From Closterium sp. NIES-65 (taxonomy: Eukaryota; Streptophyta; Zygnematophyceae; Desmidiales; Closteriaceae): a DNA stretch of 64,000 bases. A program made the translations under genes and the position numbers. Below, piece after piece: positions 32,129 to 63,990 of the stretch (its first letter is position 1; every line of letters begins with the position of its first letter). The notes beneath the pieces were generated by a model. It had not been told where the DNA came from. It saw only the letters and a program-made list of their open reading frames with translations, and did no database searches. Location of the stretch: assembly GCA_948144175.1 (NCBI GenBank), contig CANXME010002497.1, positions 1,818,501-1,882,500 on the forward strand, read 5' to 3'.

Positions 32129-32551
32129 ACTAGGGCCTACACCAAGTGAAATGTTACACTACACAAAGTAATGTGACTATCTTCAATATCTTGAGGTGCA
32201 CCCTTTTGGCGAGCTTCGAAATCACTCGAGGCTTGACACAAAGGCTTGGGCTCTTCATCACAAACTCATCCTAGAGTTCTTGATGGGTCTTCTGCACACA
32301 CCTGCGACACGCCGAACGTTCGACACAGGAGAAAATAGAAACCACGCGCGAGACACAAACGACCGCGTAATACGCGTCTAGCGATATCTCGCTATTGACT
32401 CGACACACACACTTGACATCATGAATCAACATTCACACACAATTATAAGCATGAAATATATATTATTCCATGCCCTCATACCATTCCATACACACACACA
32501 TGCACGCACACGGACAACAAGCCGAGTGCAAACCGTAGGGTTGCACCAACA
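32129..32551 (-). repeat. Copia F 3' LTR, partial (reverse)
   Basis: Matches 37781-38203. Reverse complement starts TGTTGGTGCAACCC; the purine tract CCGAGGGGGAGTT lies just right of it (32552-32564). Confidence 0.9.
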
Positions 32552-32592
32552 AACTCCCCCTCGGATTGTTGGCCTTAGTATATGTTGCTCTC

Positions 32593-35500
32593 TCAGTTCA
32601 GAGCCATCCCAGCCAGCTTGCAACACTTCCAATGCTGCTGCTCCACCAGCCTCTTGGTCATCATGTCAGCCGGCTGCCCCGTGGTCTTCACGTAGCGCAA
32701 CTCAACTTCACCCGCGGTTACCATGCTCCTCGTCCAATGCCACTTCACCCTCTTGTGCTTTGCGAGTCCATGCAACACAGGGTTCTTAGCAAGAGCAATG
32801 GCACCCTGGCTGTCACAGTAGAGTGGGGTAGGTCCTTGCTGCTCTTCCCCCAATTCAGCCAACAAACGCCGCTGCCACACAATCTCCCGTACGGCACCGA
32901 AGAGTGCCATGTACTCGGACTCCACCGAGCTCAAAGCTTGGTCAACCTGCTTCTTGCTCTCTCAAGCAGTTGGGCCTCCACCGACACAGCATATGAAGCC
33001 TCCCACACTTGTCATGTCCTCTGGTTACGATGCATATGAAGCATCCGAGTAGGCGGTGAGGAACAAACGCCCGGGTTCAACACCATCCACGCCCTTTTGG
33101 CGCCTTTGTGCCGCTGCCGAGTATTGCAGCCCAACGGTCGGTGTTTGGCCAAGATACTTGGCCACCCTCATTTCAGCTGCTACCAGCTCCTCATTAGGGC
33201 ATTGCACAACCCTAGCCAGCTGCCCGGTAGCAAACGCGACGTCCGGTCGGGTGTTTACCGCCGCATACATGATGCTGCCCACTAACGAGTGAAAACGGCG
33301 CCTCTCCTCTTCTCCAACGCTCTCCTCCTCTGGGCCCTTCACACACTTGAACCCAGAGGGAAAGGGAGTAGCCACATGACCTTCACTCTGGCCGAAGTTG
33401 GCGGCCAACGCCTCCAGGTACTTCCGTTGGTGCACTCGCATGCTCCGCTTCTCCATGTCTCGTTCGATGTGGAGCCCAAGGTAGAAGTTCACATCACCAA
33501 GGGACTTGCACTTGAACTTGTCATGCAGCTTCAGCATCACCTCCTTCACAAGGTCAGAGGAGGGTGAGAATATGAGAATGTCATCCACATAAACCACCAT
33601 GAAGCTCCTCTGCTCCCCCTCGCCAAGCATGAACAAGGAGTGATTGGCCGTTGAGGGAGTGAAGCCGATCTCCTCCAACACTTCGCGCAGCTTCATGTAC
33701 CATTGCCTAGGGGCCTGCTTCAGCCCATAGAGGGCCTTCTTCAGCTTCCACACTCTGCCACTACCATCATCAAACCCCTCTGGCTGTGCCATAAATATCT
33801 CCTCCTCAAGGATGCCGTTAAGGAATGCCGTTACGATGTCCATTTGTTTTACTACCCATCCTTTGATGGCGGCTCCCGCGAATAGGGTTCGCAGCGTCGT
33901 CGGCTTCACCACAGGGGCAAACAGCTCCTTAAAGTCCACCTTCTCCTTCTGCTGGTACCCCTTGGCTACAAGCCTAGACTTGTAGCACTCGATCTTGCCG
34001 TCGGCATCCGACTTGATTTTGAAGAGCCACTTGGACGTTATCGCCGTATGCCCCTCCGGTAGCTCCACCAATTCAAATGTGTCATTCTCCTCGATGCTCT
34101 TCAGCTCACTCTCCATGGCCTTCTTCCACTCCTCAGCATCACTACTCTCCAAAGCCTCCTTGAGAGTTGCTGGTTCTCCTGGCATCTCCACCGGAGAGAA
34201 GAACGCGAAGGCACACTCCTCGTAGTCACTCTCCTCGTCGTCTCCGACCATCATTGCCGCTCCGGCCAGGGCTGTCTTTCCCTGCTTTCCCAGCGCATCA
34301 TAAGTCAGCCTATTAGGGGGTTGAACTCTTCTCTTCCCCCTTCCTTCCTCCTCAGCTGCAGGGACTTGAAGGCCTTGGTGTTGCTGCGGTGTGGCTCGAA
34401 TCCGTGGAGCACTCATAGTACGGGAAGGGAGTGACGGTGCACGCTCGCTCACTTGCTGCACCTCCTCCTCTTCTTCCTCTGCATCATTGGCCTCCTCTCC
34501 CCCATTCACAAGGGAGGATTGCCTCGTGGTTGTGCTGCCGCTGCTCAGCTCCAAAGGCAGCTCCACACGCTCCAAACCGGAACTCTTCACCTCCCCAAAC
34601 CGCACGCCTATCTTCGCCTCATTCTCCGCCTTCCAATCCTTGTACATGAAGTTCTCCATGAACTTGCAGTCCCTGCTCACCAAGAACTTCTTGGTGAATG
34701 GGTCCCAAAGAAGCCATCCCTTGCTGTTTTGAGCCATGCCCAAGTGCACGGCCCACACCGCCTTGGCACCAAACTTGTTGTGCCGAAGATGCTTAGGCAC
34801 GAGCGCCATGCTCATGCACCCGAACACACGAAGCATATCCACCTTTGGCTTCCTTCCTAGCCACTCCACATAGGGCACCCATTTGTCTGCTCCCACATGA
34901 GTCAAGGCTCTGTTCTTGGCCACACACGCGCTCCGCACCGCATCAGGCCAGAAATAGTCGGGTAGCCCGGCTTCAATGAGCAACCCGCGTGCCGCCTCCG
35001 TGATTGTGCGGTTCGCTCGCTCGGCGATGCTGTTCATTGCACGGGAGTATGGCATGGTGAGGGAGTGCCGAATACCATTCTTCTTCAGCCACAACCCAAA
35101 CTCCTTTCTCAGGAACTCTCCCCCTCGATCGGTGCAGATTGACTTGACTAGACGATCTTGTTGTCGCTCCACCATCGGGAACCAATCCGTCTTCAACGTT
35201 TCAGCCACGTCGCTCTTCTTGGCCAGCACATACACCCAAGTCATGCGGGTGTAGACGTCGACAATGGTGAGAAAATACTCAGCTCCAGCAGCTCCAAGCT
35301 TCAGGGGGCCCACCACGTCCATCACCACCTCATCAAGCGGTGCCTTAGCCATCGCCTCCGAACTAGAGAACGGGAATCGGGTGAACTTGGCTTGCATGCA
35401 CGTCGGGCAGCCAAGTACCTCATTGGGCTCCCCCTTCACACGTATGCCAGCAACCATCTCATTCTTCACTAGCTGCTGCAAGATAGGCAGGGCCACATGC

Positions 35501-36912
35501 CCCATTCGCCGATGCAAGGTAAGCCAATCACACTCCCCCGTAGCTGAAGTCGGATTGGAGAATGCCGCGCTCGCAATAGCGCCCCACATGCTCTCTCCGT
35601 AGTCCTCCTCCGCTGCTGCCTCGGGGTTCTTCTCACCCTTTTGCTGCTCCTTGGCTGTTGCACCTCTCTCCATAGGTTCACCAAGCTTGCTGGTCCCTCC
35701 AAGTTTGCACTTCTTGGGCTCCTTCTCCTTAGCGCGACCGTCCGCGCAATCGCCGCTACCAATCGCTCCACCTTTGGTGCTGACGCTTGCTGCCACTTGC
35801 CTCTCCTTAGGCATTGGGACCACAGGGATCTTCCACATCTCACTGTAGACATCTCTGTCCTCATGAAGGTCCCAAAGAATCCGGTCGCCAAGCCTTGCGG
35901 TGTAGGTCTTGGCTCCCTTCGAGTTCTTGTCCATGCCGGCCTTCGCCAACCGCCGCACGGAAATCAGGTTGGCAGCAAGGCTGGGAACCCAAAGCACATT
36001 CTTGAGGCCCATCATCTTCCTATCAGCACCCTTAAACATGGCCTTGCCCATGCCTTTCACCTCCGCTCGCTGCCTCAAAGCCGATGTGACATGCTTCACC
36101 GGTGACGGTTCGAGTTCGGTGAGCAAGTCCGGGCGAGGTGTCATGCTATAGGTAGCGCCACTATCGATCACCCAATAGTCCAGAGGGTGTAGGGTCACCT
36201 TCCCCACAGCTGCTGGCTCCTCAAAGCCTTCATCCTTCTCTGGACCAGTCGGTACTTGCGTCGACACGAAGTAGAATAGACCCGGGTACCGATCGTTGCT
36301 CAGGTCCTTGTCATTGTCTCCGCTCGTCATTTTTGCAGCTCCGCCACCGCGACCGCCACGGCCTCCACGGCCTCGTCCTCTCCCTCCTCCTGCTCCTCTA
36401 CCCTCCTGGACTTGAGGAGGGGTCCAACCATCATCGAGCTTGTAGCAATCACGCCACATATGTCCGCTCTTGTGGCAATAATGGCATTCGCCGTCGGATC
36501 GGCCGCGACCGCGACCGTAGCTCTTGCCATTGCTGCCATAAACGCCACTCCCGCGGCCTTCGCCAAAGTTGCTGCCACCAAACCTTCCTCCCCCTCGTCC
36601 TTTGCCTCTTCCTCGACCATATCCACGGCCGATGCTCGCTGCCCCAGCGCCATCCGCACTCGCCAACTCACGGCGGCGGAAATCCTCTTGAAGGATAGCT
36701 CGCTTCACATCTTCGAGCGAGAGGCGGGGCAAGTCGCGATTCAGGTTGATGATGAGCGAGGACCATGATTCAGGGAGTAGGGCCAGCAACTTGGTCTTCT
36801 TTTGGAGCTCACTATAGTTCAAATCCGCTCCCTCAAGCCGCGTCAACAAGTCGAAGAATTTCTGCACCCCTTCTTCAACCGCTTCATCCTCTTCAATTCG
36901 TAACGTCGCCAT
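32593..36912 (-). CDS. Copia F Pol (zinc knuckle, protease, integrase, RT, RNase H)
   Basis: A 1295-codon open frame (33025-36912) plus the RNase H end (32593-32934). In order: Gag C-part (FFDLLTRLEGADLNYSEL), Gly/Arg-rich region, zinc knuckle CHYCHKSGHMWRDC, protease WVIDSGATYSMT, pre-integrase LHRRMGHVALP, integrase (MDVVGPLKLG, TDRGGEFLRKEF), a Glu-rich linker, reverse transcriptase (ITSKWLFKIKSDADG, MVVYVDDILIFSPS) and RNase H (AYSDASYAS, then SVESEYMALFGAVRE). This is the common plant copia design, unlike the Gly-tail design of copia B. Part of a broken element. Confidence 0.9.
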
Positions 36913-49095: not shown

Positions 49096-49925
49096 TGTTA
49101 TAATCACCGTAGGCTCCAATGTGCCTAAAACGAAAGATAGAGTGCACAGCCGGATTTCTGCACAGCGGCTTCAAACGATTATAGCGTTCTGGTCACACCT
49201 TTAAATGACCTGATTCAACTTGGATCTGGAGCGTCTTATTGTCGCCTACAATAGGCAATTTAGATTGCACGATTTCAGCAAGAATTGACGACACAACGTC
49301 AGTTTGAACGAACGGCACTATGGCAGCCACTATAGTCTTAGAACACAAGATAGGAAGAGTTAGGAAGAGTTACAAATTGGGAATGACTCCCAGCTCCTAC
49401 AAACCCCAAGAGCCGAGGTACAATGATGTGGAACAGTGCCACACTGTCCCCAACCACGAAGGGTCTCGAAACTACCCTTCACTAGGGCCTACACCAAGTG
49501 AAATGTTACACTACACAAAGTAATGTAACTATCTTCAATATCTTGAGGTGTACCCTTTTTCGCGGTCTTCGCGATTACTTTAATGTTGACACCAGGGCTC
49601 GGGCTCTTCATCACAAACTCATCCTTGAGTTCTTGATGGGTCTGCTGCACACACCTGCGACACGCCGAACGTTCGACACAAGACAGAATAGAAACCGCGC
49701 ACGACAAAATAGATACCACGCGCGAGACACAAACGACCGCGTAACACGCGTCTAGCGATAACTCGCTATTGACTCAACACACACACTCGACATCATGATT
49801 CAACATTCACACACAATTATAAGCATGAAATATATATTATCCCATGCCCTCATACCATTCCATACACACACGCATGCATGCACACGGACAACAAGCCGAG
49901 TGCACACCATAGGCTTGCACCAACA
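49096..49925 (-). repeat. Copia H 3' LTR (830 bp, reverse)
   Basis: Plus-strand edges TGTTATAATCACC and TTGCACCAACA; the purine tract lies at 49926-49938. It has a GACAAAATAGA-type insertion near 49700 compared with F. Confidence 0.9.
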
Positions 49926-49966
49926 AACTCCCCCTCGGATTGTTGGCCTTAGGATATGTTGCTCTC

Positions 49967-52900
49967 TCAGTTCAGAGCCATCCCAGCCAGCTTGCAACAC
50001 TTCCAATGCTGCTGCTCCACCAGCCTCTTGGTCATCATGTCAGCCGGCTGCCCCGTGGTCTTCACGTAGCGCAACTCAACTTCACCCGCGGTTACCATGC
50101 TCCTCGTCCAATGCCACTTCACCCTCATGTGCTTCGTGAGTCCATGCAACACAGGGTTCTTAGCAAGAGCAATGGCGCCCTGCCTGTCACAATACAGTGG
50201 GGTAGGTCCTTGCTGCTCTTCCCCCAATTTAGCCAACAAACGCCGCTGCCACACAATCTCCCGTACGGCACGGAAGAGTGTCATGTACTCGGACTCCACC
50301 GAGCTCAAAGCTTGGTCAACCTGCTTCTTGCTCTCCCAAGCAGTTGGGCTTCCACCAACACAGCATATGAAGCCTCCCACACTTGTCATGTCCTCTGGTT
50401 CCGATGCATATGAAGCATCCGAGTAGGCGGTGAGGAACAAACGCCCAGGTTCAACACCATCCGCGCCCTTTTGGCGCCTTTGTGCCGCCGCCGAGTATTG
50501 CAGCCCAACAGTCGGTGTTTGGCCAAGATACTTGGCCACCCTCATTCCAGCTACTACCTGCTCCTCATTAGGGCATTGCACAACCCTAGCCAGCTGCCCG
50601 GTAGCAAACGCGACGTCCGGTCGGGTGTTTACCGCCGCATACATGAGGCTGCCCACCAACGAGTGAAATCGGCGCCTCTCCTCTTCTCCAACACTCTCCT
50701 CCTCTGGCCCCTTCACACACTTGAACTCAGAGGGAAAGGGACTAGTCACATGACCTTCACTCTGGCCGAAGTTGGCAGCCAACGCCTCCAGGTACTTCCG
50801 TTGGTGCACTCGCATGCTCCGCTTCTCCACATCTCGTTCGATGTGGAGCCCAAGGTAGAAGTTCACGTCACCAAGGGACTTGCACTTGAACTTGTCATGC
50901 AGCTTTAGCATCACCTCCTTCACAAGGTCAGAGGAGGGTGAGAATATGAGAATGTCATCCACATAAATCACCATGAAGCTCCTCTGCTCCCCCTCGCCAA
51001 GCATGAACAAGAAGTGATCGGCCGTTTAGGGAGTGAAGCCGATCTCCTCCAACACTTCGCGCAGCTTCATGTACCATTGCCTAGGGGCCTGCTTCAGCCC
51101 ATAGAGGGCCTTCTTCAGCTTCCACACTCTGCCACTACCATCATCAAACCCCTCTGGCTGCGCCATAAAAATCTCCTCCTCAAGGATGCCGTTAAGAAAT
51201 GCCGTCACAATGTCCATTTGCTTCACCACCCATCCTTTGATGGCGGCTCCCGCGAATAGGGTTCGCAGCGTCGTCGGCTTCACCACAGGGGCAAACAGCT
51301 CCTTGAATTCCACCTTCTCCTTCTGCTGGTACCCCTTGGCTACAAGCCTAGACTTGTAATGCTCGATCTTGCCGTCGGCATCCGACTTGATTTTGAAGAG
51401 CCACTTGGACGTTATCGCCGTACGCCCCTCCGGTAGCTCCACCAATTCAAACGTGTCATTCTCCTCGATGCTCTTCAGCTCACTCTCCATGGCCTTCTTC
51501 CACTCCTCAGCATCACTACTCTCCAAAGCCTCCTTGAGAGTTGCTGGTTCTCCCGGCATCTCCACCGGAGAGTAGAACGCGAAGGCACACTCCTCGTAGT
51601 CACTCTCTTCGTCGTCTCCGACCATCATTGCCGCTCCGGCCAGGGCTGTCTTGCCTTGCTTTCCAAGTGCATCATAAGTCAGCCTATTAGGGGGTTGAAC
51701 TCTCCTCTTCCCCCTTCCTTCCTCCTCAGCTGCAGGGACTTGAAGGCCTTGGCGTTGCTGCGGTGTGGCTCGAATCCGTGGAGCACTCGTGGTACGGGAA
51801 TGGAGTGACGGTGCACGCTCGCTCACTTGCTGCACCTCCTCCTCTTCTTCCTCTACATCATTGGCCTCCTCTCCCCCATTCACAAGGGAGGATTGCCTCG
51901 TGGTTGTGCTGCCGCTGCTCAGCTCCAAAGGCAGCTCCACATGCTCCAAACCGGAACTCTTCACCTCCCCAAACCGCACGCCTATCTTCGCCTCATTCTC
52001 CGCCTTCCAATCCTTGTACATGAAGTTCTCCATGAACTTGCAGTCCCTACTCACCAAGAACTTCTTGGTGAATGGGTCCCAAAGAAGCCATCCCTTGCTG
52101 TTTTGAGCCATGCCCAAGTGCACGGCCCACACCGCCTTGGCACCAAGCTTGTTGTGCCGAAGATGCTTAGGTACAAGCGCCATGCACATGCACCCGAACA
52201 CCCGAAGCATATCCACCTTTGGCTTCCTTCCTAGCCACTCCACATAGGGCACCCATTTGTCTGCTCCCACATGAGTCAAGGCTCTGTTCTTGGCCACACA
52301 TGCGCTCCGCACCGCATCAGGCCAGAAATAGTCGGGTAGCCCGGCTTCAATGAACAACCCGTGTGCCGCCTCCGTGATTGTGCGGTTCGGTCGCTCGACA
52401 TGGTGAGGGAGTGCCGAATACCATTCTTCTTCAGCCACAACCCAAAGTCCTTGCTCAGGAACTCTCCCCCTCGATCGGTGCGGATTGACTTGACTAGACG
52501 GTCTTGTTGACACTCCACCATCGGGAACCAATCCGTCTTCAACGTTTCAGCCACGTCGCTCTTCTTGGCCAGCACATACACCCAAGTCATGCGGGTGTAG
52601 ACGTCGACAATGGTGAGAAAATACTCAACTCCAGCAGCTCCAAGCTTCAGGGGGCCCACCACGTCCATCACCACCTCATCAAGCGGTGCCTTAGCCATCG
52701 CCTCCGAACTAGGGAACGGAAACCGGGTGAACTTGGCTTGAATGCACGTCGGGCAGCCAAGCACCTCATCGGGCTCCCCCTTCACACGTATGCCAGCAAC
52801 CATCTCATTCTTCACTAGCTGCTGCAAGATAGGCAGGGCCACATGCCCCATTCGCCGATGCAAGGTAAGCCAATCACACTCCCCCGTAGCTGAAGTCGGA

Positions 52901-53729
52901 TTTGAGAATGCTGCGCTCGCAATAGCGCCCCACATGCTCTCTCCGTACTCCTCCTCCGCTACTGCCTCAGGGTTCTCCTCACCCTTGTGCTGCTCCTTGG
53001 CTGCTGCACCACTCTCCTTAGGTTCACTGAACTTGCTGGTCCCTCCAGGTTTGCTCTTCTTGAGCTCATTCTCCTTAGCTTGACCGTTCACGCCATCGTC
53101 GCTACCAACCGCTCCATCCTTGGTGCTGGCGCTTGCTGCCACTTGCCTCTCCTTAGGCATAGGGACCACTGGGATCTGCCACATCTCGTTGTAGACATCC
53201 CTGTCCTCATGAAGGTCTCAAAGAACCTGATCGCCAAGCCTTGCGGTGTAGGTCTTGGCTCCCTTCGAGTTAGTGTCCATGCCGGCCTTTGCCAACCGCC
53301 GCACGGAAATCAGGTTTGCATCAAGGCTGGGCACCCAAAGCACATTCTTGAGGCCCACCATCTTCCCATCGGCACCCTTGAACATGGCCTTGCCCATACC
53401 TTTCACCTCTGCTCGCTGCCCCAAAGCCGATGTGACATGCTTCACCGGTGACGGCTCGAGTTCGGTGAGCAAGTCCGGGCGAGGTGTCATGCTATAGGTA
53501 GCGCCACTATCAATCACCCAATAGTCCAGGGGGTGTAGGGTCACCTTCCCCACAGCTGCTGGCTCCTCAAAGCCTTCATCCTTCTCTGGACCAGCCGGTA
53601 CTTGCGTCGACACGAAGTAGAATAGACCCGGGTATCGATCGTCGCTCGGGTCCTTGTCGTTGTCTCCGCTCTTCATGTTTGCAGCTCCGCCACCGCGACC
53701 GCCACGGCCTCCACGGCCTCGACCTCCAA
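49967..53729 (-). pseudogene. Copia H Pol
   Basis: Protease WVIDSGATYSMTPRPDLL (about 53500), pre-integrase TLHRRMGHVALP (about 52870), integrase MDVVGPLKLGAAG and RTDRGGEFLSKDF, C-part GRKPKVDMLRVFGCMCM, reverse transcriptase ITSKWLFKIKSDADG and VIYVDDILIFSPS, RNase H AYSDASYASEPEDMTSVGGF and SVESEYMTLF, ending QHWKCCKLAGMALN. Same order and length as F. Confidence 0.85.
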
Positions 53730-54012: not shown

Positions 54013-54872
54013 ATGGCCGAAGCAGAACAAGGGCACGTGGAAGCAGCTGGTTTCCCTCCTGCGGAAGTTGCTGTCGTCGACCCATACAGGGCAACTCGCG
54101 GCACCTGCTGGGGAGGTCCACCTCTCCCAAATCAATACGCCCGTGACACACCCGGGCAAATGGAAAAAGAGTCAAAAGAAGAAGCCTACGAGTTTATGGG
54201 AGAACCAACAGAGTTACCCAAACCTACCGAGGAGCCGGAGCCGCCAGTACAAGGACCACAACAAATTGAGGTCATCGGCGCTGAATACAGTTACTTCAGA
54301 ATCCCCGTGAAGGGACTCCCAGTTCGGGAATGGCCCAACCAATGCCTGCTCGTTACCGGAGACCAAGTCGAAGCCGGCAACACCGACGACATCATTGGTA
54401 TTCCCCGCGTGCTTCTGGAGCGAAAAGCAATTCGCGCGCTCGCCGCCGACACCGACTCCGCCACCGACGCAGGACCTGAAGGGGAGGCAAACGACGAAGC
54501 AGCGCGACAAAAATATTATCAAAAGACAATCGGTTACCGTGCGGACCCAGAAACATGGCACCAACGGCTCGGCCATCCCTCCCACGCCACACTCAAAAAC
54601 TCGCTCAAAGCCAGAGTCTTCGACAACGACGCGCTCCTCCTTCCTCGAAACGGTTCCCTCACCGCGGACTCACCTAACCTGCCATGCATCGTCTGCCCAA
54701 CCGCGTCGCTCAATCACTAGCTGTTCCCCAATTTGCCCCCAGGGTATGAACACTACAAGCCGCTGGACAAGGTTTACAGCGACTTTATGGTGCTCGGCCA
54801 GGAGGGGCTCGATAGGGAGCAGTACACACTTACCTTCATCAACGCATCTACTCGCTACGTCTAGGCCGTCAA
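54013..54872 (+). pseudogene. Copia I pre-integrase and integrase start
   Basis: Reads MAEAEQGHVEAAGFPPAE, an acidic/Pro-rich part, then YRADPETWHQRLGHPSHATL (H..H of the zinc-binding domain), LPCIVCPTA (C..C), and YEHYKPLDKVYSDFMV (integrase core start). The acidic upstream text is not typical of the other families here. Confidence 0.75.
54868..54872 (+). repeat. Target duplication GTCAA left of copia J
   Basis: GTCAA here and at 62305-62309 flank J exactly, the 5-bp duplication expected of copia integration. Confidence 0.9.
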
Positions 54873-55914
54873 TGCGGAGATAACTTCAGCAACGGGAGCT
54901 AGGCTGCAGGCTAGGCACGTGTGCTCGTGTGATCTCTGCGTTCTCTGTTCCTTAGTCGTTTTCCTTGTGTTCACACTCCTTGCTAGTTCACGGGGAAAAT
55001 TGGCAAGAGTTTCACTAGGAAAAGTTCAGAACAATTGGTACAATGAAGTTGGCATAGCAAGACTACATCAGAGCAAGCACTCAGGTCGGCCAACTGCCAG
55101 CGCAGCTTGGTCGACCGCGTTCCAGCAAGGCAAGGTCGACGGCGTGCCAACGTCACAGGTTGACGGCGTGACAGCGTTGCTGACGCAGGACAGCAGTGCA
55201 CCCTGCTTCGCAGTTGCGTGCAGGTGATTAGCGTGCAGAGTCTCGTCACCTACACAGCGCACAACACCACGTCATCCTCGAGCTGACGACTGCCTCTGAT
55301 CGGCCACGTCGACCTCGGGATACCACCACCGAGGTCAGGCTCGCCAACTTCGCCTGGGCGACCGTCGCACTCCTCCGCAGCACTTCGTCACCCAGGTAAC
55401 CTGGTCGACCAGGCAACCACGTCGACCAGCAGCTCCCGTACGTGCCCGTCGACCTCCCAAGTCGACGACCACCTCCACGTCGACCAGCACAGGTCGACCA
55501 GCTCCACGTCGACCAGCACAGTCGGCCGACCACCCACGTCGGCCGCCCGAAGCGCGTCACGAAGTTGACGCCCCGCTACTCGACGCCCGACTGCTCGGCG
55601 TATTGTGTAAAGGTCGACGTCGGTCCCTCCTTCGTCGACCACCAGGTCTAGTCGACCACCCACAGGTCGACCAGCGGTCCGTTAGCCGACCGCCTAAGTC
55701 GGCTTCGACGTCTTCCGCAGGTCGACTCCCAAGTCGACCTCCCCGAAGTTGGCACCACCCTGTAGTTGGCGCCCGTGCAGTGGTCCCCCGTGCAGATCGA
55801 TCTCCTCGTCGACCAGCTCGCACATTGCTGCAGGTCGGCTGCTCCCCTCACACCCGACCACAAAGTCGGCTCCGCCCAAGCGAGGACGGGGCCAATACCC
55901 AACTCCCGTTGACA
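54873..55914 (-). repeat. Copia J 3' LTR (1042 bp, reverse)
   Basis: Plus-strand edges TGCGGAGATAACTTC and AACTCCCGTTGACA. Holds 17 GTCGAC palindromes between 55110 and 55815. The purine tract GGCAGGGGAG (minus strand) lies at 55915-55924. Confidence 0.95.
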
Positions 55915-56042
55915 CTCCCCTGCCGCGTTCACGCTTGGGCACCCACCCCACACGGCAGTACAGTTAGGAGACTAGCTCGTCGACGTGCATCCAACACATA
56001 GCACGTCGTCCACCGCACCAGCCATGCAAAAGGGCATGGCAC

Positions 56043-58004
56043 CTACTGCTGCACGTCGTTGTCGCCGTCGCCCACGTCGGCCAAGCGCACTTGGCCGATT
56101 GCGACGGAGCACCGGTTGAAGGCCGGATAGTGCAGCGCCTTCGTCAGGAAGTCGGCCGGCTGCTCAGCGGTTGGGATGTACTGCAGCGAGAACTTCCCGC
56201 GCCTCACCATGTGCTGCAGCCAGGCCTGTCGCCGCTCCATGTGCTTGAGGTTGCCCGTCAACCCCATGCCCTCGGCAACCGTGATGGCCGACTTGTTGTC
56301 CACGCGCAGGACAGTCGGCTTCCCGGCGTCCAGTTGCCGGAACTCGGCGAGGAGGAAGCGAAGGCGACGTCCCTCCTTGCCAGCTTCAGTGGCCGCAACA
56401 TACTCCGACTCGGTCGACGACAACGTCGCGCACTTGATGCGCTGGCTCGACCAGGAGACTGCAGCCCCTCCGTAGATGAACACGTAGCCGCTCGTGCTCG
56501 TCCTGTTCTGCTTGTCACCGGCGTCGTCGGCGTCCACGTAGCCGACCAGCTCCAGTGACTCAGGTCCACCGCCGAACTCCAGGGCGGTGTCGCGTGTGTT
56601 GGCGAGGTAGGCGAGGCAGCGATCGACCTCGCGCCAATGCTGGTCGCTCCTCACCGTGAGGCCGCTCCCCTGCTTGCTGCAGGCGAAGGCGACATCCGGC
56701 CTCGTCGTCGTCGCCGCGAACTGCAGCGAGCCGACCTTCTGCCGGTACTCCTCCTCCTGCCGTTCCTGCGCCTCCTCGTCATCGAAGGTGAGCTCGGCGT
56801 AGGCACCGACTGAGACAAGTGTCTTCGGGGTGCGCCCGGTCTGCTCCTCGTCGAGGAAGCGCCTACGCAGCTTGTCGGCGTAGCCCTGCTGATGCAGCCA
56901 CAGCTTCCCCGCCGACCTGTCGCGCACGATCTCCAGCCCGAGGTACTTCTGCACCGGTGAGATCTCGCGAAGCTCGAAGGCAGCTTCCAGCAGCTCCTTC
57001 AGCTCCCTCAGCATCGCGGGACTGCTGCTGGCGGCGAGCAGGTCGTCGACGTAGACCAGCACCCAGCAGACTACTTCACCCTCGCCGACCTTGAAGTAAA
57101 GAGCCTCGTCGACCTGGCTCTTCTTCCACCCGGCGCCGACCAGCACATCGTTGAGTGCGAAGTACCACAACAGCGGCGACTGCTTCAGCCCGTATAGGCT
57201 CTTCAGCAGCTTACACACCCGGCCGGTTCCGTCGTTGAAGTAGTCCGGCTGAGACATGTACAGCACCCAATCGAGCTTGCTCTGCAGGAAGGCGTTCTTC
57301 ATGTCGAGCTGCATCAGGTTAAGGTTGAGGACGGCGACGATGCTGAGGAAGATCCTCAGCGTGACGTAGCTGCTCACCGGCGCGAACGTCTTGTCGTAGT
57401 CGGCGCCGTACACCTGTGTGAAGCCCTTCACGACCAGCCTCGCCTTCTCTCGCTCGACGGTGTCGTCGATGTGGTACTTCGTCGTCAATACCCACCGGTT
57501 CTTCATGACGTTCACCCCCGGCGGGCGTTCGACCAGCTCCCAAGTGCCCATGTTGATGAGGCTCCGGATCTCCTCCTCCATGGCGGCCTTCACCGCCGGG
57601 CCCTTCCAGCTCGCCAGCGCCTCCTTCACCGTCATCGTCGAGATGTCCCAACGGTGCTCGGGGTCAGCTAGCATGTCGGGGTCGAGCTCTGGAAACTCCT
57701 CATCCTCCTCGGCGTCGTCGTACACCAGGTCGTCGTCATCGTCCACGTCATACACCGTGGTGAAGGCAGCGGGGACAAAGAAGTCAGGCGGCCTCCGAAG
57801 TCGGCCTGAACGTCGCGGTCCTTGCTGGACCTCCTCGGCGTCCCCTCCATCGTCACTGTCGTCACTGCCCTCGGCGTCCTGCTGCTCCTCAGCCGGCGTC
57901 CCAGCCGACTGCTCCACTGTGGTCGGCTTCCCAGCCGACTTCTCCCCTATGGTCGGCTCCCCTGCCGACAACCCGGTCGCCGACTGCTCCGTGGTCGGCT
58001 TCAC
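56043..58004 (-). CDS. Copia J reverse transcriptase and RNase H
   Basis: A 653-codon open frame. Starts with an acidic linker (MKPTTEQSATGLSAGEP), then LRRPPDFFVPAAFTTVYD, the RT block NRWVLTTKYHIDDTV, ARLVVKGFTQVYGADYDKTF, MKNAFLQSKLDWVLYM, LYGLKQSPLLWYFALND and VLVYVDDLLAASSSP (YVDD, about 57060), then RNase H YVDADDAGDKQNRTSTSGYV and STESEYVAATEAGKEGRRL, ending ALHYPAFNRCSVAIGQVRL. Standard copia enzymes: cDNA synthesis and RNA removal. Belongs to a nearly whole element. Confidence 0.9.
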   Translation of the reverse strand: MKPTTEQSATGLSAGEPTIGEKSAGKPTTVEQSAGTPAEEQQDAEGSDDSDDGGDAEEVQQGPRRSGRLRRPPDFFVPAAFTTVYDVDDDDDLVYDDAEEDEEFPELDPDMLADPEHRWDISTMTVKEALASWKGPAVKAAMEEEIRSLINMGTWELVERPPGVNVMKNRWVLTTKYHIDDTVEREKARLVVKGFTQVYGADYDKTFAPVSSYVTLRIFLSIVAVLNLNLMQLDMKNAFLQSKLDWVLYMSQPDYFNDGTGRVCKLLKSLYGLKQSPLLWYFALNDVLVGAGWKKSQVDEALYFKVGEGEVVCWVLVYVDDLLAASSSPAMLRELKELLEAAFELREISPVQKYLGLEIVRDRSAGKLWLHQQGYADKLRRRFLDEEQTGRTPKTLVSVGAYAELTFDDEEAQERQEEEYRQKVGSLQFAATTTRPDVAFACSKQGSGLTVRSDQHWREVDRCLAYLANTRDTALEFGGGPESLELVGYVDADDAGDKQNRTSTSGYVFIYGGAAVSWSSQRIKCATLSSTESEYVAATEAGKEGRRLRFLLAEFRQLDAGKPTVLRVDNKSAITVAEGMGLTGNLKHMERRQAWLQHMVRRGKFSLQYIPTAEQPADFLTKALHYPAFNRCSVAIGQVRLADVGDGDNDVQQ

Positions 58005-58043: not shown

Positions 58044-60146
58044 CTACAATCCCACGTCGATTCGCCGCTCGTCACGTCGGCCGCCGGCGATGCACTTGGC
58101 CGGCGCCGAAGGCGGCGTCCCACTACTCCCCTCATCGCCGGAGGCCGACACCGAGGTCAGCCCACGAAAGTCGGCCACGAGGGGAGGGGCAGGGGTCAGA
58201 GGGAGAGGGGTACAGGAGCGGACGTCCTCGACGTCCTCAGTAGCAAGCTCACCGACCTCGGCAAGCAGCGGCAGTGTCGCCGACGAGGTGTCAAAGGGCG
58301 GCAAGCGATCGGACACCGGCCCATGCTCCTTCTTCCACTCGGCCAGCGACAGCTCCTCGTAGAACACCACGTCCGACGTGGTGACCACCCGGTCAGTGGC
58401 GACATCAAGGAGCTCCCAGCCCTTGCTCGCCTCTGACACACCAAGGTGTAGGCCCCACTTGGCCTTTGGCTGCAGCTTCCCACCACGCTGCTGCTCAGGG
58501 ACAAGGAACTGCGCCATGCAGCCCCACACCCGTGCCAGCAACATGTCGGGCTTCCTCCCGGTCAGCAGCTGGTATGACATCGTCCCCTGTGGCAGTGTCG
58601 ACCTCTGAAGACAGTTGCGGACCCAGACGGCCTGTCGCAGAGCGAGGTGCCACCAGAGGTGCTGCACACCCATGTGCAGCAGCATTGTCCGCACCGACTC
58701 CACCACCGTCCTCATCTCCCGCTCCGCCATGCCGTTCTGCTGCGGGGTGTATGGGCAGGTCAGGTCGTGGACGATCCCCTTGCCGTTCACGAAGTCGGTG
58801 AACTGCTTCCCGAGGAACTCCCCTCCCCGGTCAGAGCGCAGCATCAACACCGACTTCTTCGTCTGCCGCTCAGCCACCGCCAGCCACTGTACGAACGCCT
58901 GCAACGCATCTGACTTCTTGGCGACCGGCTTCACCCACACGTAGCGGGTCTTGCGGTCCTTCAGCAGCAAGAAGTACAGGCTGCCATCCTTGGCAGCCAC
59001 GCGAAACGGCCCGCACAGGTCGATGTGCACGACGGCCAGCACGTCGTCGGCGTCGGAGCCTTGGTCGGGGTAGGTGTGCCGCGCCAGTTTCCCACCGACG
59101 CACGAGACACACGGGGAGTCGGCGTCCGTCGCCGACTTGAGGTCCAGCCCAATTGTGACCTCGTTCTTTGCCGAGCTCCGTATGGTGTCCATGCCGACGT
59201 GCGCAAGCCTCGCATGCATCCGGTTCGGCGTCGACTTCGTCTTCGAGACGATCGCCCGCAGAGCCACCACCTCCGTCGTGGGTGGCGTCGACCTCGTCGC
59301 GCAGGGACGCAGATCGGTGCAGAGGACTCGTCCAGAGTACGTCGCCCGCCCGAGCACCTCCCCTGCTGCCGAGACGAGCAACATGCCGTCTTCGTCCTCC
59401 TGCAGCTTCACGCCATGCTCCTTCAGCTGGCCGGCCGACAGCAGGTTGGCTCTCACACCCGGGACGTACAACACGTCAGGGATGAGCACCTCCTTCCCGG
59501 CCTCTCCTTGCAGGGCGATGGTGCCGCAGCCCTGGACATCCTGCAGCGCCCCATTGAAGCCGCGCACATGCCTGATGGCGCCGCTCGGCTGCAAGTCGAC
59601 GAAGGCTTCCTTCGTTCCCATCAGGTGGTGGGAGCAACCGCTGTCGAGCAGGACCACCGCCGGGTTTGCCTGCACAGCTGCCGCCACCGCCTGGAAGTCC
59701 TCTCTGGCCTCCGGCGCCAGAGAGATGGTCGGCTCCACGACGCCGACCAGCGAGCACGACGCCGTCTTGTCGTCTCGCCCCTTGCCGCTTGCAACGGAGT
59801 CGGCATCCTTCGCCGAAGTCGATGTCTTGGTCGACTGCTTCTCCTTGCGCGGCTGGTTGCCTCCACGACGAGGACGACGGCTGCCAGACCTCCCACGGCC
59901 TCCCTTAGCATCGTCGTCGTCGGAGTCGCTGCGGTTGGGACACTCGAAGGAGAGATGATCGGGATCGCCGCACAGCCAGCACTCCCGACGTCGACCTCGT
60001 CCTCCACGACCGCTGTCCTTGGTCGACTTCCTCTTGTCGACCTCCTTGGCCGGCTTCCAGCCACTGCTCCCGCCGCCACCAGACTGTCCGCGCTGTCCTG
60101 GTCGGCCTCCTTGCTTCGCCGGGGCGACGAAGTTGGCCTGCGCCAA
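58044..60146 (-). CDS. Copia J nucleocapsid, protease and integrase
   Basis: A 700-codon open frame. Basic Gly-rich start, zinc knuckle CWLCGDPDHLSFEC (about 59975), protease VVLLDSGCSHHLMG (about 59640), pre-integrase RMHARLAHVGMDTI and CVSCVGGKLARHTY, integrase core VVHIDLCGPFRVAAKDG, LRSDRGGEFLGKQF and YTPQQNGMAEREMR (D, D, E all present), C-part GRKPDMLLARVWGCMAQF, and an acidic tail. The integrase would join the cDNA to host DNA. Confidence 0.9.
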   Translation of the reverse strand: MAQANFVAPAKQGGRPGQRGQSGGGGSSGWKPAKEVDKRKSTKDSGRGGRGRRRECWLCGDPDHLSFECPNRSDSDDDDAKGGRGRSGSRRPRRGGNQPRKEKQSTKTSTSAKDADSVASGKGRDDKTASCSLVGVVEPTISLAPEAREDFQAVAAAVQANPAVVLLDSGCSHHLMGTKEAFVDLQPSGAIRHVRGFNGALQDVQGCGTIALQGEAGKEVLIPDVLYVPGVRANLLSAGQLKEHGVKLQEDEDGMLLVSAAGEVLGRATYSGRVLCTDLRPCATRSTPPTTEVVALRAIVSKTKSTPNRMHARLAHVGMDTIRSSAKNEVTIGLDLKSATDADSPCVSCVGGKLARHTYPDQGSDADDVLAVVHIDLCGPFRVAAKDGSLYFLLLKDRKTRYVWVKPVAKKSDALQAFVQWLAVAERQTKKSVLMLRSDRGGEFLGKQFTDFVNGKGIVHDLTCPYTPQQNGMAEREMRTVVESVRTMLLHMGVQHLWWHLALRQAVWVRNCLQRSTLPQGTMSYQLLTGRKPDMLLARVWGCMAQFLVPEQQRGGKLQPKAKWGLHLGVSEASKGWELLDVATDRVVTTSDVVFYEELSLAEWKKEHGPVSDRLPPFDTSSATLPLLAEVGELATEDVEDVRSCTPLPLTPAPPLVADFRGLTSVSASGDEGSSGTPPSAPAKCIAGGRRDERRIDVGL

Positions 60147-60152
60147 GAGCTC

Positions 60153-60815
60153 CTACGACCGCTCTGCCTCCTGCATCGCCTCGTCTTGCAGGATATACGA
60201 GGTCAGGTTGTCCTCATTGAGCGTCGCCCTTGTGCTCGGCGCCATAGACAGCCGCTTCAGCAAGTTGTAGCTGCTAGAGAGACCCTGCATGACATGGGTG
60301 ATGTACGACGCCGTGGAGTACTGCGCGCCGGCCATCTTGATGGTGGCGAGAATTGGCCTGGCTCGGTTGCAGTAGTCGGTCGCACTTTCCTCGTCACCCA
60401 TACGCAGGTGTGTCAGTTGTCCCTCCAGCTGGGCGATGAACAGGTCGTCGGTAACCTGGTACGTCGACTCGATGAAATGCCACGCCCGGTGGCCGGCGTC
60501 GAGGTACTCCCGGCACCACTTCAAGGCGATCTGCACGCCCGGCGAGCAGCACCGCGAGATGACCGTAAAGGTCAACAGCTGCACGGCGCGAAACTCCGCA
60601 CGCAGGTCGGAGTTGTGCTCCCCCGGCGTCGCCACGGTCCCTCGGGCGAAGCCGATCAGCCCGGCCATCTCCAGCTGGGGCTCGATGGCTTCCTTCCAGG
60701 TGAGAATGTCGGGTCGACCGACCAGCGGAGGGGTGACCGAGATCCTGTCCGGCGTAAACTTGAAGTAGCCGTAGCTCGGTGCAATCCCACCTGCCGTCAC
60801 CTGGGACGCCGACAT
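60153..60815 (-). CDS. Copia J Gag
   Basis: Starts MSASQVTAGGIAPSYGYFKF at 60815. The copia Gag signature is ILTWKEAIEPQLEMAGLIGF, then WHFIESTYQVTDDLFIAQLE, RMGDEESATDYCNRAR and SYITHVMQGLSSSYN (UBN2-like). Ends a few codons before the nucleocapsid frame. About 430 bp separate the start from the 5' LTR. Confidence 0.85.
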   Translation of the reverse strand: MSASQVTAGGIAPSYGYFKFTPDRISVTPPLVGRPDILTWKEAIEPQLEMAGLIGFARGTVATPGEHNSDLRAEFRAVQLLTFTVISRCCSPGVQIALKWCREYLDAGHRAWHFIESTYQVTDDLFIAQLEGQLTHLRMGDEESATDYCNRARPILATIKMAGAQYSTASYITHVMQGLSSSYNLLKRLSMAPSTRATLNEDNLTSYILQDEAMQEAERS

Positions 60816-61246
60816 AGGCGACAGCCCACTTCGACGCCCACCAGCGTCGCCATGCGAGGAGCCTATGCCGCCGACGACTGCATCCCTCGCGCCTGAACGC
60901 CGCCGACTTCACCGGCGTGTATCACACCTCTCTGCCTCGACGTGCCTCCCGCACTGCTGCCGACCTGACCTCCTCCGGCGTTGATACCCACGTCGACGCC
61001 GCCGTCGTTGTTCACCGGTCGAGGAGAGGCAGGTCGAGAAGGGGGGTGCTTCGCCGCCCACACGGAGCGGAGTCCGGCTTCGACGACTGCCCAGGGTATT
61101 GCCCCATACTCCAGGGTATCCATCACCTCGGCGTCGGCTACGCGCACGCTAGTGACTGCACGGATGCCGGTTTACGAACACGATCGGTATGAGCTAAGTC
61201 GGCTAGACTGAGTTACGTCGCGGTGTCCTCCACGCTCACCGCACCA
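60816..61246 (-). other. Copia J leader
   Basis: Untranslated leader between 5' LTR and Gag. The sequence next to the LTR reads TGGTGCGGTGAGCG on the minus strand; it begins TGG as primer sites do but is not the initiator-Met type, so the primer tRNA is unknown. Confidence 0.6.
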
Positions 61247-62304
61247 TGCGGAGATAACTTCAGCAACGGGAGCTAGGCTGCGGGCTAGGCACGTGTGCTC
61301 GTGTGATCTCTGCGTTCTCTGTTCCTTAGTCGTTTTCCTTGTGTTCACACTCCTTGCTAGTTCACGGGGAAAATTGGCAAGAGTTTCACTAGGAAAAGTT
61401 CAGAACAATTGGTACAATGAAGTTGGCATAGCAAGACTACATCAGAGCAAGCACTCAGGTCGGCCAACTGCCAGCGCAGCTTGGTCGACCGCGTTCCAGC
61501 AAGGCAAGGTCAACGGCGTGCCAACGTCACAGGTTGACGGCGTGACAGCGTTGCTGACGCAGGACAGCAGTGCACCCTGCTTCGCAGTTGCGTGCAGGTG
61601 ATTAGCGTGCAGAGTCTCGTCACCTACACAGCGCACAACACCACGTCATCCTCGAGCTGACGACTGCCTCTGATCGGCCACGTCGACCTCGGGATACCAC
61701 CACCGAGGTCAGGCTCGCCAACTTCGCCTGGGCGACCGTCGCACTCCTCCGCAGCACTTCGTCACCCAGGTAACCTGGTCGACCAGGCAACCACGTCGAC
61801 CAGCAGCTCCCGTACGTGCCCGTCGACCTCCCAAGTCGACGACCACCTCCACGTCGACCAGCACAGGTCGACGTCCCCTCTGGTCGACCAGCTCCACGTC
61901 GACCAGCACAGTCGGCCGACCACCCACGTCGGCCGCCCGAAGCGCGTCACGAAGTTGACGCCCCGCTACTCGACGCCCGACTGCTCGGCGTCTTGCGTAA
62001 AGGTCGACGTCGGTCCCTCCTTCGTCGACCACCAGGTCTAGTCGACCACCCACAGGTCGACCAGCGGTCCGTTAGCCGACCGCCTAAGTCGGCTTCGACG
62101 TCTTCCGCAGGTCGACTCCCAAGTCGACCTCCCCGAAGTTGGCACCACCCTGTAGTTGGCGCCCGTGCAGTGGTCCCCCGTGCAGATCGACCTCCTCGTC
62201 GACCAGCTCGCCCATTGCTGCAGGTCGGCTGCTCCCCTCACACCCGACCACAAAGTCGGCTCCGCCCAAGCGAGGACGGGGCCAATACCCAACTCCCGTT
62301 GACA
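61247..62304 (-). repeat. Copia J 5' LTR (1058 bp, reverse)
   Basis: Same edges as the left copy, with an extra 16 bp (GTCGACGTCCCCTCTG) near 61870. Also holds 17 GTCGAC sites. Confidence 0.95.
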
Positions 62305-63990
62305 GTCAACACCGACAGCAGGTCTCTGGCCTTCGAGTGCTTCATTGCGTGGATGAAGCGGGCTGAGCGACAGTCCGGTCTCAAACTCAAAACCTGGCCG
62401 ACAAACGGAGCCCTGGAGTTCTTCTCAGACGAGTTCAAGGAGCTCCTCAAGCAGAAGGGGATTGAGCACCTGGTGTCCCTGCCCTACGCTCACCAACAGC
62501 AAAGAGTAGCAGAACGGACAAACAAAAGCCTCGCCACGCGGGTGAGGGCCCTGATGAAGCAGTCGGCCATCCCAAGAAAATATTGGCCGTTTGCGATGAA
62601 TCACGCTGTTCGGCTGCACAACTTGCTGTCCTCGCGAAGCCTCGAGAACAACAGCTCTCCCTACCGTGCATGGACGGGCAGAAAAGCAGATTCACACCTG
62701 CTTCGGGTGTTTGGCTGCATGGTACAGTACAGACCCCACACTGCGAGAACCGGAAAATTTTCTGACCGGGCACGATGGGGCATTCACCTCGGGATCGAGA
62801 AGGAATTCAAGGCGTGGATCGTGCTGGACTACGCGACACACGAGGTGACGAAATCACGTGACTGCATCTTCTACGAGAAGCTGACTCTGCCCCTTTTAAG
62901 GAGTACCAGGAAGCCGACAAACTTCCCAAGAGGCTCTTCGAGGGCCACCGCAGCTTCGCCACGTCACACGACGAAGCTGACCTGGCCGAGGATGCAGACG
63001 CATCTGATGTTACCCCAATGGACTCCGCTCCGAGCATCCCCCTCACAAGCCAATTCGAGACTCCGATATTCGTACCTCTACACCAACCCGATCCTAACGA
63101 TACAGCTCGCGCGGCTCATGACTACAACAGTGAGGCGCGCCAATCACCTGATGCCGAGTTACCACAACCCAACATGTCGCAGGATACCCTCCGCCTCGGC
63201 AACAACAGCGATGACGACGTGGTCGAAGTTACCAACTTCCACGACTATGACCGACTTCACTACGAAAAGACTGATGAAACCGGTCTCCGCGTCCTCGGCC
63301 TCGCCGTCGCTGTTCGCTGCACCTCGCCCAAGGAACCAACCACCGTCCGCCAAGCCCTATCTGGCCTCGACAGTGAAAAATGGAAAGCAGCCATGGCCAC
63401 CGAAATCGCATCGCTGAAGAAACGTGGCACCTGGAAGTTGGTCCCTCGGTCATCGGCAAAGGGGAGAAAAATTCTCAGCGGCAAATGGGTTTTCCATATC
63501 AAAACTCTCGTAGATGGCTCGATCAACAGGTACAAGGCGCGTTGGGTAGTGCGGGGATTTGAGCAAACACACCTGGTGGATTTCACTCTCACCTCGGTAC
63601 GCATTCTCATCTGCATCGCCGCCGTCAAACAGCGACCGCTCCGCCAAATCGACGTCGGCAGCGCCTTCCTCTACGCTCCCGTCGATGCCATCATTTTCGT
63701 CGAGCAGCCGCATGCATTCGAAGAAAATGATGGCGTCGTGTGCCTCCTCCAAAAGTTCCCTCTACGGAATCAAGTAGGCGCCTCGTCTATGGCAGCAGTA
63801 CCTCCATTCCGTCCTCCTTGAGCTCGGCTTCACTCAGCTGCCGCACGACCTTGGAATGTACAGGCAGAAATCACGCGGGAAATTTGTACTCCTCGTTGCC
63901 TACGTCGACGACCTTCTCCTCACCGGCGACGACACGGAGCTGCTGGACCAGTTTGAGGCTGACATCAAAGAGAAACTGGAGGTGACAATC
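62305..63990 (+). pseudogene. Copia I integrase (rest) and reverse transcriptase
   Basis: Continues SLAFECFIAWMKRAERQSG, NGALEFFSDEFKELLKQKGI, YAHQQQRVAERTNKSLA (integrase core end), GRKADSHLLRVFGCMVQY, an acidic linker (about 62950-63290), then KWKAAMATEIASLKKRGTW, KWVFHIKTLVDGSINRYKAR and RQIDVGSAFLYAPVDAIIF of reverse transcriptase, with AYVDDLL text near 63900. Cut by the window end. Confidence 0.8.

Follow-up and report, generated by a model that had tools for sequence, protein, structure and literature searches.

Structure of element J

The window (the whole stretch of 64,000 nucleotides of Closterium sp. NIES-65 DNA analysed here) contains a Ty1/copia LTR retrotransposon, element J. 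That J belongs to this class comes from its paired LTRs, its 5-bp TSD and its domain order on the minus strand, where rve (ORF 58044-60146) is upstream of RVT_2 (ORF 56043-58004), so that the integrase precedes the reverse transcriptase (RT). The left and right LTRs are 98% identical. The parts of J are:

54868-54872: TSD GTCAA, left copy
54873-55914, minus strand: left LTR (3' LTR in the coding sense), 1042 bp, TG...CA ends TGCGGAG / GTTGACA
55110-55813: array of 17 GTCGAC in the left LTR, with the main cluster at 55308-55813 and a promoter-proximal pair at 55110 and 55135
55226-55231, minus strand: place of the relatives' CCAAT box, between the main array and the proximal pair; J reads CTAATC
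55915-55923, minus strand: presumed polypurine tract GCAGGGGAG, adjoining the 3' LTR
56043-58004, minus strand: reverse transcriptase ORF (RVT_2)
58044-60146, minus strand: integrase ORF (Pol_BBD, gag_pre-integrs, rve, SH3_retrovirus)
60153-60815, minus strand: Gag (Retrotran_gag_2)
61230-61246, minus strand: presumed primer binding site TGGTGCGGTGAGCGTGG, directly adjoining the LTR end
61247-62304, minus strand: right LTR (5' LTR in the coding sense), 1058 bp
61484-62203: array of 17 GTCGAC in the right LTR
61866-61881: 16-bp unit with an extra GTCGAC, missing from the left LTR in the LTR alignment
62305-62309: TSD GTCAA, right copy

J seems to be nested in another copia-like element, as plus-strand integrase-like ORF pieces (54013-54720 and 62305-63417, judged by eye) lie on either side of it and its flanking TSD. 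Elsewhere in the window, a 4.25-kb stretch is present twice (32127-36380 and 49479-53726) at ~94.6% identity.

GTCGAC is enriched in the LTRs beyond base composition

A preliminary description of this DNA had reported 17 GTCGAC palindromes in each J LTR, and direct counting gave the same number. Alignment of the LTRs shows that the right one has lost one site of the left (GTCAAC at 61509) and gained another in the 16-bp indel. Of all hexamers, GTCGAC is the most frequent in the left LTR, where the next palindromic hexamers occur twice each; near-matches comprise six GTCGGC and two GCCGAC in the whole left LTR, and three and two within 55110-55815. The expected count for the left LTR is 0.33 by base composition and 3.6 by a second-order Markov model that already contains parts of the motif. 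In 2000 dinucleotide shuffles the left LTR yielded a mean of 0.85 and a maximum of 6 sites, and shuffles of the right LTR a mean of 0.89 and a maximum of 5.

The preliminary description had named a general composition bias, with the same density in J coding DNA and host DNA, as the explanation to exclude. We found 16.3 GTCGAC/kb in the left LTR versus 3.0/kb inside J (16 sites over 5332 bp) and 0.40/kb to the left of J (22 sites in positions 1-54872 of the window). The 1500-bp flanks of 30 related LTRs agree: inside the elements there are 4.39 sites/kb after the 5' LTR (12 flanks) and 2.47/kb before the 3' LTR (17 flanks), and outside them 0.21 and 0.30/kb (13 and 18 flanks), where five letters of the PBS or PPT decided the label of a flank and L030 and L031, both labelled '3' LTR', have odd upstream DNA. 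The shuffles and the interior and outside densities together rule out composition bias as the cause of the array.

The interior of J is itself enriched, with 16 GTCGAC against 3.5 by shuffle (maximum 10). The main source is the integrase ORF, which has 8 sites against 2.57 by synonymous-codon shuffle, with none of 2000 shuffles as high; by the same test the remaining two J ORFs show no significant excess. Five of the eight sites of the integrase ORF share one reading frame.

The array is located in U3

Since the coding strand of J is the minus strand, the LTR starts at 55914 and the array falls in U3, as the preliminary description had placed it. We examined this layout in 30 diverged LTRs (thinned to 33 by shared 9-mers, minus L064, L071 and L073, each the second LTR of a pair). 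All sites are within the first 85% of the LTR length and none is in the last 15%; the distance from the last site to the LTR end is 189-301 bp, measured to the end of the fetched stretch for copies that were cut short, such as the L059 lineage. All 30 LTRs have a CCAAT, which in 26 of them separates the main array from the small proximal group, 325-404 bp from the LTR end. TATAWA was found in none of the 30 and TATA in three. The layout matches that of a putative promoter with an upstream array, although J itself, which reads CTAATC, is one of the four LTRs with no CCAAT at the conserved place.

The array persists in related LTRs

A search of the 874 Mb genome with the J LTR gave 4528 first-look candidates, of which 40 were scored. 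We examined 57 LTR copies, namely 33 from the J searches (L009-L038, L006-L008), four from array-pattern hits and the DNA fetched around these (L039, L048, L059, L060) and 20 chosen from 155 rows; some are incomplete at one end and some are both LTRs of one element. All 57 keep 6-23 GTCGAC, with a median of 18, in a sample whose distant lineages entered via array-pattern hits, so that relatives lacking the array would escape detection. The smallest number is that of L066, which has six GTCGAC plus seven GTTGAC/GTCAAC. Among the 30 tabulated LTRs, all but L066 and L078 have GTCGAC as their commonest hexamer. Solo LTRs also retain the sites, as three with matching TSDs (L011, L022 and L036) hold 18, 20 and 16.

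Individual sites come and go between lineages. Between groups A and C, 36-62% of the sites are kept, 22-36% are one base off, 14-15% are two or more bases off and 1-14% fall in indels.

The solo LTR L011 (contig C1357) and the LTRs L012/L013 (C1925) share identical 20-base flanks and the TSD TATCG. On the first contig the LTR is solo and on the second there are two, with interior ends, as would be seen if LTR-LTR recombination distinguished two haplotypes. On C904 (223970-237980) three LTRs (L019, L023 and L021) lie in a row, with interior ends on both sides of L019 and L023, which we read as three or more elements arranged head to tail with LTRs in common.

Six bases are conserved within variable surroundings

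To describe the conservation of the motif, we compared pairs of the 30 diverged LTRs at 75-92% identity in gap-free windows (3747 site-pairs). The substitution rates across G-T-C-G-A-C are 0.043, 0.042, 0.087, 0.084, 0.043 and 0.025, and those of the adjoining bases are 0.231 at -1 and 0.174 at +1, with a mean of ~0.16 over ±12; the flanks thus change about 2.5-3 times more than the six bases. When the comparison was instead anchored on unique 11-mers common to both LTRs, the rates were 0.019-0.089 inside the motif, 0.12 at -1/+1 and ~0.10 over ±12. With this anchoring no dip was found for NNCGNN control words (13790 site-pairs), although the G of the motif CpG changed as fast as some flanking bases. 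The site-pairs are non-independent, and the safer number is that of the per-site test on the J side, in which each of the 17 sites is better conserved than the 10 bp on either side of it (p = 1.5e-5). Ranked by retention, GTCGAC is 42nd of 347 words; the 25 best-retained words have 21-39 occurrences each (~1 per LTR), versus 468 for GTCGAC.

The conservation extends to every class of base in the motif. In three bins of identity (at least 90%, 80-90% and 70-80%), T2+A5 change at rates of 0.012, 0.041 and 0.105, which is 10-, 5.9- and 3.3-fold less than other T/A. The rates for G1+C6 are 0.022, 0.025 and 0.096 (2.1-, 4.6- and 2.2-fold fewer changes than other non-CpG G/C), and those for the motif CpG are 0.033, 0.076 and 0.099 (2.6-, 2.3- and 2.5-fold fewer than other CpG). 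Because the non-CpG bases are also conserved, the whole word is kept, beyond its CpG. When aligned sites differ, the variant is most often GTTGAC or GTCAAC (555 of 1528 changed site-pairs), a pattern that resembles ordinary decay of CpG. In the J interior (102 ordered pairs, 12 flanks) the motif changes at 0.047, other CpG at 0.064 and other bases at 0.075, an effect that is weak and confounded with coding constraint.

As a control, we compared the two LTRs of single elements, between which selection should be absent. In 14 such pairs, 15/1596 motif bases have changed versus 170/8764 elsewhere in the array, and among the 11 pairs that are 97.4% identical or more, two of which share one LTR, the counts are 7/1284 versus 71/6866. 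The ratio of motif to elsewhere is 0.48-0.53 within elements and 0.28-0.38 between lineages, from small numbers and with some loose pairs that may be recombinant. Since the ratio is below 1 within elements, part of the footprint could reflect low mutability or recombinant pairs.

Discussion

Here, we have observed directly that GTCGAC sites form an array in U3, that all the LTRs examined have it, and that the six bases are better conserved than what surrounds them. The array is real and conserved, and it is probably regulatory and under selection. We are fairly confident that it represents a protein-bound regulatory array, that is, a homotypic cis-regulatory cluster in the U3 of a copia retrotransposon clade. 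We argue that one sequence-specific host DNA-binding protein would read GTCGAC, perhaps with GCCGAC as its second-best site, and that purifying selection on this recognition would be the cause of the six-base footprint. Many copies of the site would be occupied, upstream of a promoter that has a CCAAT box and no TATA box, and the bound factor could set the transcription of the element, activation being the effect that we infer. Two roles for the array had been offered from the outset, an enhancer array and a methylation target. The putative U3 enhancer array has gained from the position of the sites, their persistence in 57/57 copies and the 6-bp footprint, and the methylation target has lost ground, as the rates of change at T2+A5 and G1+C6 are similar to that of the motif CpG or lie below it.

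It is unlikely that the array is a degenerate minisatellite, in which short tandem duplications spread a GTCGAC-bearing unit and the word itself is unselected. The array clearly grows partly by short duplications. The 16-bp unit differs between the J LTRs, and 573 of the 1932 sites of group A LTRs are in indels relative to group B. Among the short repeats of the left LTR, TRF reports degenerate units of 14-29 bp at 55466-55541. The preliminary description had called the spacing irregular and the array no simple tandem repeat; the irregularity is confirmed, and tandem repetition turns out to be partly true locally, though it does not account for the conservation footprint. The lower variability of the motif within elements is also what a partly non-selective footprint would give. 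On the other hand, neighbouring sites are spaced from 9 bp to more than 50 bp apart, and only six bases are common and conserved while positions -1 and +1 vary freely. Homogenised repeats would have retained their spacers, so the fact that the spacers are not kept argues against a minisatellite.

Equally improbable, in our judgement, is a function at the level of RNA or small RNA, in which the palindromes would structure the U3 transcript for packaging, dimerisation or siRNA production, as has been argued for the palindromes of maize Sireviruses. An excess of smRNA at Sirevirus palindrome clusters has been described (PMC10760457). In J, a 516-nt coding-strand stretch folds to -270.5 kcal/mol, with z = -6.7 against 40 dinucleotide shuffles and z = -3.0 against 40 hexamer-keeping shuffles, the latter value being soft as spacers were shuffled by single bases. 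A perfect 6-bp palindrome is, however, unable to form a hairpin of its own. Nor is the palindrome cleanly extended: -1/+1 fall short of the expected complementarity (0.36 versus 0.46), and positions 2-4 show a slight excess (0.395, 0.274 and 0.365 versus 0.325, 0.236 and 0.287).

We regard as very improbable a methylation or CpG-island function, in which the array would persist as a CpG-dense region that the host marks or protects: 55300-55813 does have a CpG o/e of 1.25 and a GC of 0.66 (versus 0.57 and 0.48 in 54873-55087), and CpG transitions are the leading changes at the sites, but the whole J interior is CpG-rich (o/e 1.04, GC 0.65), so that the island is not specific to the array, and protection is seen at the non-CpG bases of the motif (3.3- to 10-fold for T2+A5 and 2.1- to 4.6-fold for G1+C6, with 2.3- to 2.6-fold for the CpG).

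If the array is read by a host protein, as we favour, the variants of the word could indicate what kind of protein this is. The enrichment of one-base neighbours is graded. In a coding-strand scan of NNCGAC, GTCGAC is enriched 57x, GCCGAC 17.5x, ATCGAC 4.0x and ACCGAC 3.6x. GTAGAC and GTGGAC are below expectation; GTCAAC reaches 13.5x, a value inflated by the LTR end TGTCAAC. Beyond the six bases, a rule that G precedes or C follows the motif shows a weak departure, as neither is present in 32 of 335 distinct sites versus 45 expected. The HvCBF2 site, which has the same six-base core, reportedly goes back to Xue 2003.

The suggested comparison with plant motif collections has yielded a match: in published lists of promoter elements (PMC9138379, PMC4553201), GTCGAC appears as the PLACE entry CRTDREHVCBF2. 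This entry and CBFHV (RYCGAC) denote the sites of HvCBF2, an AP2 protein from barley that acts as an activator, and the core of CRT/DRE elements is given as RCCGAC. In view of these two catalogued cores, an AP2/CBF-type factor is a tentative first candidate for the reader of the array, a link that a barley protein and a six-letter match support weakly. GCCGAC, which falls within RCCGAC, is the most enriched one-base neighbour in J LTRs, but its retention on the coding strand is average (0.54 versus 0.50 for the median word). In those lists the HvCBF2 site is one among many predicted promoter elements, whereas J-type LTRs have 6-23 each. AP2 domains are present in the genome, with at least 125 matches, 112 of them above the cut-off, among the 150 of 195 candidates that were scored, probable haplotype copies included. 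As a separate observation, GCCGAC is enriched 17.5x on the coding strand versus 4.5x on the opposite strand, and 139 of 158 occurrences are in the first 40% of the LTR.

The closest known counterpart of the J array is found in Sireviruses, whose LTRs are described as having palindromic repeated motifs (RM) on CpG islands upstream of a TATA box (PMC2829016). According to the same paper, the RM are Sirevirus-specific and absent from its set of classic copia elements, and no common bound factor could be named for them. Table 3 of that paper gives 3-14 copies of a short palindrome per 3' LTR; J, with 17 per LTR, has the palindromic, LTR-clustered RM in at least eight copies per element that is expected of a Sirevirus. 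Moreover, the RM share with the J array a preference for the upper half of a copia LTR, a CpG island and a place upstream of a promoter element. Among the literature matches listed, as far as titles and abstract openings show, none names a GTCGAC array in an LTR; the nearest is the RM of a Vitis Sirevirus, CGGTCGACCG, which includes GTCGAC (PMC2829016).

J differs from Sireviruses in other features. Sireviruses have several AGGGGGAG polypurine tracts and a linker of 0.5-4 kb, whereas J has a linker of 128 bp and one CAGGGGAG at the LTR junction, with four further matches to AGGGGGAG or CAGGGGAG deeper inside the element. The junction of the 5' LTR and the PBS is CA-ATTGG-TATCAGAGC in Sireviruses and CA-TGGTGCGGTGAGCG in J, and the presumed PBS of J differs from the initiator-Met type described for Sireviruses. 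A TATA box follows the RM/CpG island in all but two of the Sirevirus elements described (PMC2829016), in contrast to the J-type LTRs with their 0/30 TATAWA. All but one of 13 RMs have a CGG-CCG core (PMC2829016), whereas the footprint in J is that of GTCGAC only, with G at -1 in 319 of 468 sites and C at +1 in 273 of 468. Compared by these sequence features, the J array resembles an RM array in kind, while J departs from Sireviruses in several of the features that define them.

Host transcription-factor sites in the LTR also drive the transcription of the copia elements Rider (PMC6762207), ONSEN and EVADE (PMC12786077), in the manner that we propose for J, but a saturated, clade-wide array of one site does not appear in those accounts. 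The U3 of Rider has a predicted CBF site, and cold is reported to have given no induction (PMC6762207). Palindromic LTR arrays were previously described as a Sirevirus speciality (PMC2829016), and a comparable array is now found in a copia clade that lacks several Sirevirus features. The word of the J clade is a short and exact one whose conservation can be measured, and it coincides with a catalogued AP2/CBF site, so that the question of the factor behind such arrays becomes directly testable.

To see the scale of the array in the genome, we counted triples of sites with gaps of 2-30 bases. There are 41,806 GTCGAC triples, versus 7,162 of CAGCTG and 2,906 of GACGTC, although CTGCAG triples are also common (25,811). 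Single sites number 428,060 for GTCGAC and 494,477 for CAGCTG; from the two counts, GTCGAC is not commoner singly, yet it is ~7 times more clustered. At 7.23 triples per LTR (57 LTRs), the triples correspond to ~5,800 LTR-equivalents, an upper guess inflated by other repeats and by probable double counting of haplotype contigs. It is conceivable, though we think it rather unlikely, that the whole copia clade, with perhaps several thousand LTRs, is locked on one host regulator via 6-23 exact sites per LTR, and that these tens of thousands of arrayed sites are enough for a genome-wide factor sponge or for a rewiring of neighbouring host genes.

We also considered whether the array is common to many unrelated families, which is unsupported among the matches listed (contigs C1-C10 of the 41,806 triple places). 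The places on C1, C2 and C3 align to the J LTR, the judgement on C4 and C10 relied on the appearance of the matched strings only, and those on C9 are a 24-bp minisatellite plus a weak cluster. In a 24-bp minisatellite at L058:1530-1595, which has no similarity to J, GTCGAC is inside the palindrome GAGTCGACTC. Finally, an rbcL of this genome has rubisco large chains as its best PDB matches and places the host in the green lineage; equal-scoring rbcL copies occur many times and in both orientations (C75, C97, C162, C1848, C2174 and others), as if plastid DNA had been assembled into several odd contigs.
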